Assembly (NCBI RefSeq): GCF_000422785.1 | Contig: NZ_AUGS01000015.1 | Location: forward strand, 1-64,000 | Direction of reading: 5' to 3' | Source: Pseudovibrio exalbescens DSM 16456 | Lineage (GTDB): Bacteria > Pseudomonadota > Alphaproteobacteria > Rhizobiales > Stappiaceae | DNA length: 64,000 nucleotides | Shown here: piece after piece, positions 59,286 through 64,000 of the stretch | Position numbering within the stretch: position 1 is the stretch's first letter | Layout: every line of letters begins with the position of its first letter | The notes under the pieces: model-generated | The model's input: only the letters and a program-made list of their open reading frames with translations | What the model was told of the DNA's origin: nothing | Database searches by the model: none | Translations under genes and position numbers: made by a program

Positions 59286-59792
59286 CTATTTCGGATAACG
59301 AATAACAAGTCGATCAGGCTCAAATTGAACCGACCCAAGGCGATTCATTGCGGTCATTCCCAGCAACACTTCGCTCAAAGCCTCATCAGGAAGAACGGCA
59401 GCATGAACATCGCGCAGACGCAAGCCCTCGATATCAAGTCGATCCAATGTGACAGGCGCGAAATCAACCTCGCCGTTCGCGGTGACCGCTACCTTCGTAA
59501 AATCATTTGGACTGACGTGAATGCCTGCACGCTTTGCGATACTTTGGGGGAGCGCTACCATGGTCGCCCCTGTATCCAGAACACCCACGATAGAATAGCC
59601 GTTGACACGCAAGGATACCTTGAAGCGCCCCTGTCGATCCGCTGACAATACAATGCTGCGAGAAGTGGTTCCTGACGGCTCCGCAGCAGCCAATGTCTGG
59701 CGTTCCTGACGCTCCATATATCCTTGGAGCACGCGCGGAACGAACACCGCGAGGGCGCATGCGATAGCCAAAATGGCCAGATACCGTATCAC
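59286..59792 (-). CDS. Retropepsin-like aspartic protease (TIGR02281 family)
   Basis: The 168 residues have an N-terminal membrane anchor (YLAILAIACALAVFVPRVLQ), then a retropepsin domain with the catalytic DTGATMVALPQSIAKRAG and the closing VLLGMTAMNRLGSVQFEPDR. The family (TIGR02281) is common in alphaproteobacteria as clan AA aspartic proteases of unknown target. Start is GTG 59792 with GGGAGAG upstream. It lies 30 nt before the ribokinase gene end. Confidence 0.87.
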   Translation of the reverse strand: MIRYLAILAIACALAVFVPRVLQGYMERQERQTLAAAEPSGTTSRSIVLSADRQGRFKVSLRVNGYSIVGVLDTGATMVALPQSIAKRAGIHVSPNDFTKVAVTANGEVDFAPVTLDRLDIEGLRLRDVHAAVLPDEALSEVLLGMTAMNRLGSVQFEPDRLVIRYPK

Positions 59793-59821: not shown

Positions 59822-60739
59822 CTAAGTCGCGGTGCCCTGCTCTAGTGCATCCGCCAGACGGGCGATTTCATCACCGGTTGGTGCGCTCGTTTGAGCCCCA
59901 GTGCGCGTACATGCCAGCCCGCCAGCAGCGTTGGCTTCATAAAGCGCCCGCTTCAAGTTTGCGCCCCGGTCTAACGCAACCACAAGCGCTCCAACGAAGG
60001 CATCCCCGGCGCCAGTGGTATCAATCGGTTCAATCGGCGCAGGCGGCACATGGCCCAAAGACTGTTGGCCATCATGAGCCATTGCTCCATTCCGCCCCAT
60101 TGTCAGCACGACGGCACGTCCGGGACGCGCCAAAGCACTTATAAAATCTTCCGGATCTTTCGGGTAACCATTCAGGTCAGCCAGTGCAGCCGCTTCCTTA
60201 CGGCTGGCGACAATCACATCGGCAGCCTCGACCAGTTCAGCTACGGCCGGGTTGGTGGCTGGATCCGGGTTCAGAACAACGCGCGCACCTTTTGCTTTGG
60301 CAATCTGAATTGCCCGAGCCACAACATGAGAGGGCACCTCCATCTGCAAAAGCAACGTGTCTTCCGAGGTCAGGCACTCTTCAAGCCAAGCGGCGTCGAT
60401 ACGTGTATTCACCCCGCTTGCAACAAGGATCTGGTTTTCACCGCCAGCGTCAACTCCGATCATGGCCAGACCGGTTGCCCCATCAAGGACCCGAACGCCA
60501 CTAAGATCCACACCAACGGATTTCAGGTTCACAAGTGCAGGTTCACCAAACAGATCCGAGCCGACGGCACCAATGAGGCGAACATCTGCCCCTGCCATCT
60601 TGGCAGCAAACGCCTGATTGCCGCCCTTGCCACCAGCAAAATATTGATGATCCGGACCAACAACCGTTTCGCCCGCAGCCGGCAATCGATCCACAGCTAC
60701 CACGATGTCAAGATTAATGGACCCCAGAACAACTATCAT
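59822..60739 (-). CDS. rbsK: Ribokinase
   Basis: RbsK phosphorylates D-ribose. The 305 residues start IVVLGSINLDIVVAVDRLPA and carry YFAGGKGGNQAFAAKMAGAD, the substrate motif of ribokinases, TVVLNPDPAT-like VVLNPDPATNPAVAELVEAA and the active-site PIDTTGAGDAFVGALVVALD with the catalytic Asp. Related PfkB sugar kinases are an alternative, but GGKGGNQA is that of ribokinase. Its position near the URC cluster could serve ribose released from nucleoside catabolism (inference). Confidence 0.92.
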   Translation of the reverse strand: MIVVLGSINLDIVVAVDRLPAAGETVVGPDHQYFAGGKGGNQAFAAKMAGADVRLIGAVGSDLFGEPALVNLKSVGVDLSGVRVLDGATGLAMIGVDAGGENQILVASGVNTRIDAAWLEECLTSEDTLLLQMEVPSHVVARAIQIAKAKGARVVLNPDPATNPAVAELVEAADVIVASRKEAAALADLNGYPKDPEDFISALARPGRAVVLTMGRNGAMAHDGQQSLGHVPPAPIEPIDTTGAGDAFVGALVVALDRGANLKRALYEANAAGGLACTRTGAQTSAPTGDEIARLADALEQGTAT

Positions 60740-60872: not shown

Positions 60873-61511
60873 TCAGGCAGTTGATACGGCATCAAAAAAC
60901 GCTGCCAGCTTGGCCCGATCCAGTTTACCATTGGTGCGCACACCCGAGCAGACATCCACCGCAAACGGCCGTACGGTCTGGATCGCTTCAGTGATATTGT
61001 CAGGTGTCAGCCCCCCCGCCAGAAAAACCGGTGCTGCTGCGCTGTCGACAATGGCCTTGCTATGTGTCCAGTCATGAGTGCGGCCTGTCCCTCCAAGTTG
61101 ATCCTCTGAAGGTTTGCCGGAATCGAGAAGAAGCGCGTCCACATAAGGAGCATAGTCCTGTGCCATCTCCACCGCATGCTCGTCTTCCACGTGGATGACC
61201 TGAATGACCTTGAGGCCGCGAGGAAGCTTCTTGCGCAACCGCTCGTGTTCCGTAGGATCAATGTGATTGACAATCTGGACCGTGTTCGCACCCGAATGCA
61301 CCAGATGATCCGCGATAGCATCGGCCTTGACTTCTGAGGTAAGCAGAACAGAGGCCACAGGGGGTGAAATCATCTGAGCGATCTCGTAGATCAGGCTGTC
61401 ACTAATGACGCCCGGCCCACTCGGCATTTTGGAGACCAGCCCCAGCGCATCAGCGCCATAGGCCACAGCGATCTGGGCTTCTTCAAACGAAGAAATACAG
61501 CAGACCTTCAT
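60873..61511 (-). CDS. TrpF-like (phosphoribosylanthranilate isomerase family) protein, atypical
   Basis: The TIM-barrel protein has KVCCISSFEEAQIAVAYGAD at the start, DALLLDSGKPSEDQLGGTG and LAGGLTPDNITEAIQTVRPF and AVDVCSGVRTNGKLDRAKLA, the TrpF phosphate-binding end. The catalytic Cys (Cys4) and Asp (Asp130) of TrpF are present. But the loop F-x-x-K-S-P-R, whose Arg binds the anthranilate carboxylate, is replaced by VSKMPSGPGVI, and VQLHG is VQIVNH. There is no other trp gene here. I start at ATG 61511 (212 residues). So it is probably a TrpF relative with another phosphoribosyl substrate. It lies beside upp and urc4. Confidence 0.8.
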   Translation of the reverse strand: MKVCCISSFEEAQIAVAYGADALGLVSKMPSGPGVISDSLIYEIAQMISPPVASVLLTSEVKADAIADHLVHSGANTVQIVNHIDPTEHERLRKKLPRGLKVIQVIHVEDEHAVEMAQDYAPYVDALLLDSGKPSEDQLGGTGRTHDWTHSKAIVDSAAAPVFLAGGLTPDNITEAIQTVRPFAVDVCSGVRTNGKLDRAKLAAFFDAVSTA

Positions 61512-61598
61512 ACGGGTCCGTCCTGCGTAGCTATCCATGGTATGCCCCATCAAATATAAGTGGGATTAAGGTACTGTTATCTAGGTGCCTTTGAAAGA

Positions 61599-61642: not shown

Positions 61643-62272
61643 TTATTTTGTACCATACATACGATCGCCGGCATCACCGAGGCCGGGGACGATATAGCCT
61701 TTCTCGTTAAGCTTTTCGTCCACTGCGGCGGTATAGATCGGCACGTCCGGATGGGCTTCATTGAAGCGCTGCACACCTTCAGGTGCCGCGAGCAAACACA
61801 CGAAGCACATGTTGTTGGCTCCGCGCTGCTTCAAGCGCTCAACCGCTGCAATTGCGGAATTGGCGGTGGCCAACATGGGATCAACAACAATGATGCGGCG
61901 CTCATTCATATCTGCCGGCGCCTTGAAATAGTACTCAATAGCTTCCAGCGTTTCCGGATCACGATAAAGACCGATATGTGCAACTCGTGCAGATGGAATA
62001 AGCTCCAGCATCCCTTCCAGCAGGCCGTTCCCAGCGCGCAGGATGGAGGCGAACACCAGCTTTTTGCCTGCGAGAACTGGCGCATTCATCTCGGAGACAG
62101 GTGTTTCAATTGACGTGTCCACCAGCTTCAGGTCGCGCGTCACCTCATAGCAAAGAAGTAGAGAAATTTCCCGGAGCAGGCGACGGAAGCCTTGCGTCGA
62201 GGTGTCCTTCATCCGCATGTGTGTCATCTTGTGCTGGACGAGTGGGTGGTCGATTACAGTTGCGCCAGGCAT
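61643..62272 (-). CDS. upp: Uracil phosphoribosyltransferase
   Basis: Upp makes UMP from uracil and PRPP. It has [38 protein letters not shown], the PRPP motif [20 protein letters not shown], and [13 protein letters not shown] at the end. The start is ATG 62272 ([11 protein letters not shown]) with GAGG upstream, 209 residues. The longest frame adds 25 charged residues. In the URC pathway UMP formed by this activity is the entry substrate. Third of the group urc1-urc4-upp. Confidence 0.97.
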
Positions 62273-62398
62273 CTTTACCTCTTTATTCTCCCTCTCGCGG
62301 CTGACCTTACCATCCGGCATCACCTCGAGAGACGGGTCAATTCTCATAATTCAGACAGGCTTGTGACTCACCATCACGCTGCTGTCCAGTCTCTGCCA

Positions 62399-63640
62399 TC
62401 AAAAAACGGTGGCATCACTGATAATGGTCAAGGGCGGTTCCCCGCCGGGCCTTTTTTCAAAGGCTATCTGGCGACCCGCGGACCAAGATCCCCCTTCCAA
62501 CACACAGGCCAACGGCAATTGATCAGCCGATACGCCAAGATCCGCCCGGATCCAATCGGCCAACTTGTCCAAAAGAGCGACCGTGAGAGCTCGCCACTCT
62601 ACAACCAACTCGCTGCTGATGTCATGATTGCCCAAAGCCTCTTGCGGATTGCGTAGAGACAGAACGCCAGTATCCAAGAACAGGCCTCCGTTGCGATACT
62701 CCGCCAGACCTGTCAGCCCATCCAGATCACTCACCTCGACACCCGCCCACGCCAGCGGTTCAACCAATGAATATGCCATCCATTGGCTCAGTTTGTGGAA
62801 CGGGATCAAACCGTTGGTTTTGTTGGTGCGTTCGATTTTTGTATGTCGCCAGGTATCACCCAGCCCCACTCCATCAATCTCTTCTCGTCCAGGCCAGATT
62901 GGGCCCAACCCGTCCAACAACAACTCCAGTATGCGCGGCGCAGGCACCGGGGCGCTTTGCCCTTCATCATAAAGCAGATCAAACAGACCACCCGGCCGTG
63001 GCTCATCCTTGGTCCCGAAAAGGTCCGGCCGTAATGACACGGCCTCCCCCAACCGACGCAACAGGTCGGCCCGTTCCTTCAAGCCGACGATGGGATTATC
63101 TGGGCCGGCCTGCAAGCCTTCTCGCACTTCATCAGGATCAATGCGAAAAAGCTCTCCGGCATCGGCTCGGAAAGGATCCAGTGGGCTGCCGGAGAAAGTA
63201 CCGCCGGAAAACATCAAAAGGGATGCAATTGCCAGTCCTTCAGAACGGCTGAATGTTTCCCCTGTAACGCCTTCATGAAATTTCCACTCCGGCCCGGCCC
63301 CTGCATCCAACAGCACAGACAGGATTGCCAGATCGAAGGCAGCGCGCCCCATGCCGTGAACGTCGGAGAACCGTCTCGCCCCCGCCAGCATCGCCCAACG
63401 ATCAACCCCTCCAGCCTCAAAATGGCGCCATCGGGCGTGGAATGGGATCTGAAGATCCGGATAAGCAGCCCGCGTAGCAGCCAGGGTGCGGCGGGCAGCT
63501 TCTGCCAGTTTACTCAAATCAACTGCAAAATGATCGAGTTTTCCCTCAAGGCCGAGCGTGAGCATTTCATGCGCACGTTCTCGCACGGCTGAGGCGTTAA
63601 GTAGAGAGAGAGCCTCGGACTCTTGTGTTTCAGTAGTCAT
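62399..63640 (-). CDS. urc4: URC4/Urg3 family protein (DUF1688), uracil catabolism
   Basis: The 413 residues show the DUF1688 hallmarks: ARRTLAATRAAYPDLQIPFH-ARWRHFEAGGVDRW, FDLAILSVLLDAGAGPEWKF, TFSRSEGLAIASLLMFSGGT, and KLSQWMAYSLVEPLAWAGVE, ending EGGSWSAGRQIAFEKRPGG and PLTIISDATVF. In yeast URC4 is required for the URC route that turns uracil into 3-hydroxypropionate and urea, with no assigned reaction. Its start overlaps the urc1 stop by 11 nt, so they are translationally coupled. Gap to upp is 126 nt. Confidence 0.9.
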   Translation of the reverse strand: MTTETQESEALSLLNASAVRERAHEMLTLGLEGKLDHFAVDLSKLAEAARRTLAATRAAYPDLQIPFHARWRHFEAGGVDRWAMLAGARRFSDVHGMGRAAFDLAILSVLLDAGAGPEWKFHEGVTGETFSRSEGLAIASLLMFSGGTFSGSPLDPFRADAGELFRIDPDEVREGLQAGPDNPIVGLKERADLLRRLGEAVSLRPDLFGTKDEPRPGGLFDLLYDEGQSAPVPAPRILELLLDGLGPIWPGREEIDGVGLGDTWRHTKIERTNKTNGLIPFHKLSQWMAYSLVEPLAWAGVEVSDLDGLTGLAEYRNGGLFLDTGVLSLRNPQEALGNHDISSELVVEWRALTVALLDKLADWIRADLGVSADQLPLACVLEGGSWSAGRQIAFEKRPGGEPPLTIISDATVF

Positions 63641-64000
63641 CGATTGACCGACCGTGGATGTTTTTCAGTTCATCACCAACAACCGGTGGCGCATCACTAT
63701 AATACCCCGCCGCCTTCTTGGCCTCCATTTCCACCTGAGCATCGGCTGGGATCAGCTCATCGGGCAATGCGATACGCTCATCGATAGAAATACCGGATTC
63801 AACAAGGGCATTGTACTTCATGTCCGACATTGAAATGAACCGCCCAATCCGCGTTATCCCGAGCCAGTGCAAGACATCAGGCATCAATTCCTGGAAACGC
63901 GCGTCCTGAACGCCGGCGACACACTCCGTTCGGGCAAAATAAGTTGCAGCCGTGTCTCCGCCTTCCTGACGTTTTCGGGCGTTGTAGACGAGGAATTTTG
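63630..64000 (-). CDS. urc1: URC1-type GTP cyclohydrolase II homologue, C-terminal part
   Basis: The frame is open at the window edge and reads, from the edge, FLVYNARKRQEGGDTAATYF, RTECVAGVQDARFQELMPDV and LHWLGITRIGRFISMSDMKY, then IPADAQVEMEAKKAAGYYSD and ends GRSIDDY. This matches the C-terminal part of the RibA-like proteins that form the URC1 family (uracil catabolism), which act on a nucleotide other than GTP. The N-terminal zinc-binding catalytic region lies outside, so the call rests on the C-terminal sequence and on the coupled urc4. The apparent 85-codon frame starting near 63887 is only the tail. Confidence 0.87.
   Translation of the reverse strand, partial: KFLVYNARKRQEGGDTAATYFARTECVAGVQDARFQELMPDVLHWLGITRIGRFISMSDMKYNALVESGISIDERIALPDELIPADAQVEMEAKKAAGYYSDAPPVVGDELKNIHGRSIDDY

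Follow-up and report, generated by a model that had tools for sequence, protein, structure and literature searches.

What a TrpF-like protein does beside the genes of the URC route of pyrimidine catabolism is the question raised by this locus. The window, i.e., the whole stretch of 64,000 nucleotides of Pseudovibrio exalbescens DSM 16456 that was analysed, contains on its minus strand a homologue of phosphoribosylanthranilate isomerase (TrpF, or PRAI), with urc4 and upp upstream of it and urc1 running across the window edge. The first-pass annotation, which had rightly placed the gene beside the URC genes, proposed that it may encode an isomerase missing from the route, one that would open the ring of phosphoribosylurea, and that the adjacent ribokinase serves the released sugar. 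Our analysis leans towards a different reading, namely that the protein belongs to a distinct family split off from TrpF, probably an Amadori-type isomerase of a small N-(5-phosphoribosyl) compound, with a changed substrate.

Reading frame, fold and active-site residues

The minus-strand frame running from 61511 to 60873 translates, with no internal stops, into a protein of 212 amino acids. The interval 60873-61511, singled out by the first-pass annotation, stands as a real gene and is here assigned to the minus strand; its start, however, should probably be moved to the in-frame ATG at 61538, which would give a protein of 221 residues (gene at 60873-61538). An R-T-R tripeptide ahead of the K-[IV]-C-C motif is common to the window protein and its homologues in G155 (MPFRTRLKVCC) and L137 (MRTRVKICC), so that Met1 of the 212-residue version is probably internal. 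The call of this gene as a putative orphan phosphoribosyl isomerase draws on the open reading frame, the match to PF00697, conservation within the family, the AF2 model and the match to known structures.

The window protein matches the PRAI family of Pfam (PF00697) with 89.6 bits against a gathering cut-off of 22.7, and has no match at E 0.01 to the HisA/PriA-type Pfam family. All 13 NCBIfam PRAI-type models listed score it under their cut-offs; the TrpF equivalog cut-off of 215 bits is missed, the best score being 140.4. AF2 confidently predicts a TrpF barrel (mean pLDDT 92.3), for which the closest PDB chain is TrpF 1v5x, with Z of 26.7 and an rmsd of 1.7 over 196 residues. HisA/PriA isomerases (PDB 2y85, 4w9t, 1vzw), which perform the same type of reaction as TrpF, share the fold class but are a weaker match (Z 17.6-18.1). 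A sequence search of PDB found TrpFs at E 1e-19 or weaker, and no solved member of the family.

Residues were counted in one alignment of 102 family rows and 31 canonical TrpF rows, the former including identical or near-identical Phreatobacter pairs. Other divergent PRAI homologues (L022-L025), two long branches (L159 and L175), two rows with short flanks (L163 and L167) and a fragment (L020) were left out of the counts, and the sister rows L160, L173 and L174, discussed below, were tallied separately. The likeness to TrpF (PF00697; PDB 1v5x, 1nsj, 1lbm) extends from the fold to Cys4, found in 101 of the 102 family rows with a gap in the remaining one, and to Asp130, found in all 102; Asp186, GGxG and AGGL are retained as well. 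Thus, the first-pass description of a TrpF-like protein that keeps Cys4, Asp130 and the phosphate-binding end is borne out by the alignment. Cys4, Asp130 and Arg33 align with Cys7, Asp126 and Arg36 of tPRAI, and we take their roles to correspond also: Cys4 and Asp130 presumably form the catalytic acid-base pair, and the Arg of the S-P-R motif presumably binds the anthranilate carboxylate.

The family departs from TrpF at five positions and gains four further residues. Arg33 of S-P-R, present in 31/31 canonical rows, is replaced by Gly in 100/102 family rows, including the window protein, whose lack of this Arg had been noticed in the first pass; the two other family members carry an Arg at the S-P-R site (position 34). 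His80 of the V-Q-L-H motif (29/31 canonical rows) gives way to Val or Cys in 100 of the 102, and Lys101 (26/31) to Gln in 99. Glu188 and Lys194, each invariant in the 31 canonical rows, are replaced by Arg in all 102 and by Leu in 101 family rows, respectively. In place of Phe144 (26/31), every family row has His146; Cys5 (97/102), His107 (102/102) and a near-invariant Arg192 are gained in addition. In the secondary structure of the model, His107 closes strand 5, and Cys4-Cys5, His146 and Arg192 are found at or after strand ends, which would put all of them on the TrpF active-site face. Sequences conserved at about 50% identity between phyla point to an enzyme with a definite role.

Extent of the family and the other TrpF copies

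Among the matches listed for 199 genomes of the order to which the window belongs, 16 genomes hold the gene, i.e., the window's own genome and 15 others with copies 51-64% identical to the window protein; all other listed matches are at most 39% identical. The copy in G089 is a fragment. In a profile search of genome contigs, the best 80 of 507 relatives were retained, and these are spread over about 14 phyla: Pseudomonadota, Bacteroidota, Acidobacteriota, Planctomycetota, Myxococcota, Cyanobacteriota, Ignavibacteriota, Calditrichota, Fidelibacterota, Verrucomicrobiota, Gemmatimonadota, Armatimonadota, and candidate Krumholzibacteriota and Sumerlaeota. One Arthrobacter record clusters with Alphaproteobacteria and is possibly mislabelled, and two Bacillota records fall outside the family.

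A tree of 61 rows recovers the 27 family rows as monophyletic at 100/99, apart from the 31 canonical rows, and a sister group of three rows joins the family, also at 100/99. A quick tree of 122 rows has the same split between family and canonical sequences, with long branches that leave some placements unsure. The sister group (L160:2027-2644, L173:1501-2124 and L174:1501-2121, with L159 more distant) comes from two small alphaproteobacterial genomes and a Clostridia MAG. Like the family, it has His107 and His146 and lacks the S-P-R Arg, which is Asp in 3/3; unlike the family, it resembles TrpF in retaining Gly5, the V-Q-x-H His, Glu188 and Lys194, and has a G-x-LVG-x-TH-type loop in the place of the MPSGPG of the family. 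Further divergent PRAI homologues with no evident S-P-R (L023 and L024) come from G171 and G198, two large genomes of the order with three PRAI matches each.

Eight of 72,556 plasmid records give a match. Identity reaches 50% or more in three, of which two are near-identical regions. The plasmid copies belong to Sphingomonas, Sphingobium and Acaryochloris, and are annotated as 'phosphoribosylanthranilate isomerase'. Phage records yield just three matches, at 31-33% identity. A PRAI-like gene annotated as trpC is found in a record labelled 'Acinetobacter phage' (CAKLQH020000002.1:60525-61133), which is possibly host DNA. In the PMC titles and beginnings of abstracts that were searched, nothing on this TrpF-like family was found.

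The window gene lies away from trp genes, and is a paralogue of the TrpF of its genome. A second, canonical trpF, for which the first-pass annotation suggested a search, is present: a PRAI match of 158.9 bits with K-I-C-G and S-P-R is found on a separate contig (C2:92153-92764), next to a gene that reads as trpB. PRAI copies were counted in 52 genomes, of which 51 are carriers, since G113 has no PRAI match at all. Two or more matches are found in 44 of the 51 carriers, and 40 of these 44 have a match of at least 117 bits, as compared with 89 bits for the window's gene in the search of its own genome; the second match is only partial in G202 and G238. All 20 of the second copies that were fetched retain the S-P-R Arg.

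The other seven carriers have a single PRAI match, and four of these seven have no trpC match either. This leaves G036, G181 and G215, where trpC is present with no other PRAI match. In G036, given as 99% complete, the contig stops 814 bases upstream of trpA, which is too short for trpB and trpF; together with G113, a genome of the same genus with neither PRAI gene, this means that the apparent absence may be a matter of missing assembly. G181 has no trpA match, and G215 has both trpA and trpC. The family member may serve as TrpF in some carriers with a single match or only a partial second one.

Gene order and co-occurrence with the URC genes

All genes of interest in the window are on the minus strand. 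The 3' part of urc1, encoding a GTP cyclohydrolase II-like protein, occupies 63630-64000 (NF005536, 211.6 bits for a fragment, under the cut-off of 403) and continues past the window edge; the whole open reading frame, seen in L003, encodes 420 amino acids. It is followed by urc4 (DUF1688) at 62399-63640, which matches PF07958 with 466.2 bits, and by upp, the gene of uracil phosphoribosyltransferase, at 61643-62347 (PF14681, 247.9 bits; the TIGR01091 equivalog is above its cut-off). Directly past upp, the terminator suggested in the first pass is represented by a terminator-like stem-loop (61630-61605; 10 base pairs, T-rich tail), the longest stem listed, which makes separate control of the TrpF-like gene plausible; the search gave seven terminator-type sites where shuffled sequence gave 4.6 on average, a count that carries little weight. 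Downstream of the TrpF-like gene lie a ribokinase-like PfkB kinase at 59822-60739 (PF00294, 194.1 bits; TIGR02152, 257.3 bits, under the equivalog cut-off of 299.65), a clan AA aspartic protease matching TIGR02281 at 59286-59792, and an aldose-epimerase-like gene.

The wider setting of the URC genes is a long same-strand nucleoside cluster (L003:119-18706; gene names read by eye). Further upstream it contains genes for a nucleoside ABC transporter, cytidine deaminase (cdd) and a nucleoside phosphorylase, along with deoC, deoA, deoB and adenosine deaminase (add), after which come urc1, urc4, upp, the TrpF-like gene, rbsK, the protease and the epimerase. Parts of this cluster recur in G155, G058, G044, G070 and G116. 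A TIGR02281-like protease is also found near six of 20 URC loci inspected, as well as in the window and in G155, for no evident reason.

Adjacency of the TrpF-like gene to urc4 or upp is confined, among the loci examined, to the window, G155 and G230. In G155 the gene begins 17 bases past upp and its end overlaps the ribokinase match, so that in both this genome and the window it occupies the same slot between upp and rbsK. In G230 (L137) it is divergent from a DUF1688 gene, with upp adjacent; the DUF1688 protein there is strongly diverged, about 29% identical to that of the window (L137:970-2157). The best tree pairs the copy of the window with that of G155, with weak support (86/0), and a single insertion event would suffice to explain them; placing the G230 copy with them is compatible with the topology test but not established by it (p-AU 0.29). 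The window having been chosen for its neighbourhood, fresh evidence for the association comes only from G155 and G230. In G116, a genome from the window's family, ribokinase comes 27 bases after upp and is followed by the genes of the protease and the epimerase, with no TrpF-like gene. The DUF1688 protein of this locus (L214:6170-8912) has diverged to 41% identity with the window's, urc1 is absent from its side, and an MFS-like transporter, identified by eye, takes the place of urc1; this URC locus is possibly decaying or altered.

If the protein were an isomerase of the URC route, it should track urc4 across genomes, and for the most part it does not. A lack of co-occurrence with urc genes, named in the first-pass annotation as grounds for refuting its proposal, is therefore largely what is observed. 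In the 199 genomes of the order, DUF1688 is encoded in 46, and 12 have both genes, so that the TrpF-like gene is missing from 34 of the 46. In 385 genomes of the class, where at most eight first-look candidates were scored per genome, there are 15 carriers and 38 genomes with DUF1688, with an overlap of four, and the gene is again missing from 34 of the 38; three of the 15 class matches (139 to 182 bits) represent the sister group or distant sequences. Among 45 carriers from the genome-contig search, which were picked from the 80 loci mainly for their long contigs, are the same 45 that entered the PRAI count, and may in part fall in the window's order, DUF1688 is present in five and missing from 40. 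A weak enrichment does exist: within the order, 12/16 carriers have DUF1688 as compared with 34/183 other genomes (Fisher p 6e-6). The signal is reduced when genera of the order are counted (5/8 vs 22/92, p 0.03) and in the class (4/15 vs 34/370, p 0.05), which indicates that relatedness accounts for much of it, and in the remaining three class genomes with both genes these are on different contigs.

The URC loci themselves tell the same story. Twenty DUF1688 loci were inspected, selected from the 46 of the order; 17 are from genomes that lack the TrpF-like gene, and three from G019, G036 and G100, which carry it elsewhere. None of the 20 contains the TrpF-like gene, whereas urc1 and upp are found in 18 each. 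Ribokinase follows upp in four of these loci, and therefore need not be the partner that the first-pass annotation saw in it. Urc1, Urc4 and Upp, known from Lachancea kluyveri and bacteria, are thus neighbours of the TrpF-like gene in the window and G155, as are urc4 and upp in G230, but the majority of the DUF1688 genomes sampled lack the gene, and the majority of the genome-contig carriers tested lack DUF1688. Some Alphaproteobacteria may have a loose functional tie between the gene and the URC pathway; a required role in it is not supported.

Neighbours at large give no better lead. Clustering of genes around 80 loci of the genome-contig search and 16 of the order, with crude gene calling and names mostly read by eye, detected no common partner and no shared function. 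Guilt by association was tried and abandoned, as the recurring groups follow lineage: an ABC-2 ATPase/permease pair in Phreatobacter-like genomes, a GNAT-like gene at six Ignavibacteriota/Bacteroidota loci, dapB/dapA-like genes in three Acidobacteriota, and infB/rbfA-like genes in two Alphaproteobacteria. In the last of these (L146:5625-6215 and L154:5811-6431), the TrpF-like gene appears, by eye, to sit between the infB-like and the rbfA-like gene. In G037, it is found beside a gene with a phosphoribosyltransferase domain.

Urc4, and what the TrpF-like family may do

The other part of the answer comes from Urc4. Its AF2 model, built from an alignment of 20 rows (pLDDT 92.1), matches the DUF2419/Qng1 structures 7ugk, 7ulc and 7u5a with Z of 26.0-27.1 over 308-329 residues; the top match, 7ugk, has an rmsd of 3.4 over 329 residues at Z 27.1, and the next structural group, DNA glycosylases, scores 10.9 and below. 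Qng1 is the queuosine-5'-phosphate nucleosidase of queuine salvage, in accord with the titles of these PDB entries. At the sequence level, the link is faint: 22 bits in BLASTP, hhalign probability of 13.9 with E 0.002, and, for one Urc4, an E of 0.0062 with the Pfam Q_salvage model, under the cut-off. The motifs can nevertheless be lined up, 'PFHKLSQW ... DLDGLTGLAE' in Urc4 with 'PFYKRAQI ... DLDRLTLFAD' in a Q_salvage protein. Lys283 and Glu314, which do not vary among the 20 Urc4 rows, fall opposite a Lys and an Asp in the latter, which we take to be K199 and D231 of Qng1, judging from the titles of mutant entries and the spacing of 32 residues. If this equation holds, the Lys would be alike in the two proteins, and the acid would be Glu in Urc4 and Asp in Qng1.

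This resemblance suggests that Urc4 itself probably splits phosphoribosylurea into urea and ribose-5-phosphate, as a Qng1-like N-glycosidase, in which case URC may need no isomerase. In a paper on an L. kluyveri metabolic model, the yeast URC4 product is said to break ribosylurea down to urea (PMC7530994). The urea from the route could be used, as a gene for the urease beta subunit is present in the genome of the window. None of the three PMC papers turned up by the search on this link, as judged by title and beginning of abstract, pairs DUF1688 or URC4 with DUF2419 or Qng1.

The role originally proposed for the TrpF-like protein, ring opening of phosphoribosylurea in the URC route with ribokinase for the released sugar, has in its favour the position of the gene next to upp and urc4 at three loci and the enrichment with DUF1688. 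It is made highly improbable by the absence of DUF1688 from most genome-contig carriers tested, by the absence of the gene from most DUF1688 genomes and from all 20 other URC loci inspected, by the ribokinases that follow upp without it, by the possibility that the window and G155 copies derive from one insertion, and by the availability of Urc4 as a good candidate for the sugar-releasing step; as a general role, it is rejected on co-occurrence and synteny. That the family is a second working phosphoribosylanthranilate isomerase, as public annotation has it, is improbable too. The PF00697 score, the TrpF fold, the preserved catalytic pair, the plasmid annotations and the three genomes with trpC and no other PRAI match would all agree with such an isozyme, but Arg33 and His80 have each been lost in nearly the whole family, Glu188 and Lys194 have been replaced, most carriers have another PRAI, and the exceptional genomes include one whose trpA contig stops too early for trpF, so we reject it as the likeliest role.

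Repair or detoxification of a phosphoribosylated by-product common to many cells, for which nucleoside clusters would be one useful setting, we regard as rather unlikely when taken as a separate proposal. It would suit a gene that is scattered, stand-alone, sometimes plasmid-borne and without a fixed partner, and yet has a near-invariant active site, and also one found beside upp in the window and in G155 and beside a phosphoribosyltransferase-domain gene in G037. Such distribution and contexts, however, fit other accessory enzymes too, and where the role stays general the proposal overlaps with that of an orphan isomerase.

The orphan isomerase is the reading we prefer. In it, Cys4 and Asp130 would drive an acid-base isomerisation, of Amadori type, of an N-(5-phosphoribosyl) compound devoid of the anthranilate carboxylate; the gene would be a stand-alone unit that in the window and in G155 is found between upp and rbsK and is not needed there. 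We infer that the protein is an isomerase at all, and that its substrate is a phosphoribosyl compound; the kept acid-base pair is not in itself proof of an Amadori reaction. The stand-alone position, scattered distribution and occasional presence on plasmids suit an accessory enzyme, perhaps one of metabolite repair. A more specific version, to which we give an even chance, is that the pair has remained unchanged while the pocket was rebuilt around Arg192, His107, His146 and Cys5 to carry out a novel reaction with another phosphoribosyl compound, and that in some nucleoside clusters the enzyme handles a phosphoribosyl by-product of URC, with Urc4 as the Qng1-type nucleosidase for phosphoribosylurea.

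For the URC pathway, the Qng1 fold provides a specific candidate enzyme, and two candidate catalytic residues, for the step in which ribosylurea is broken down. For the TrpF-like family, the copies seen are annotated as TrpF, and metabolic models may therefore count a tryptophan gene that probably is none. The probable misnaming would hide a widely shared enzyme activity, and the residue replacements provide a sharp signature by which the family can be found.
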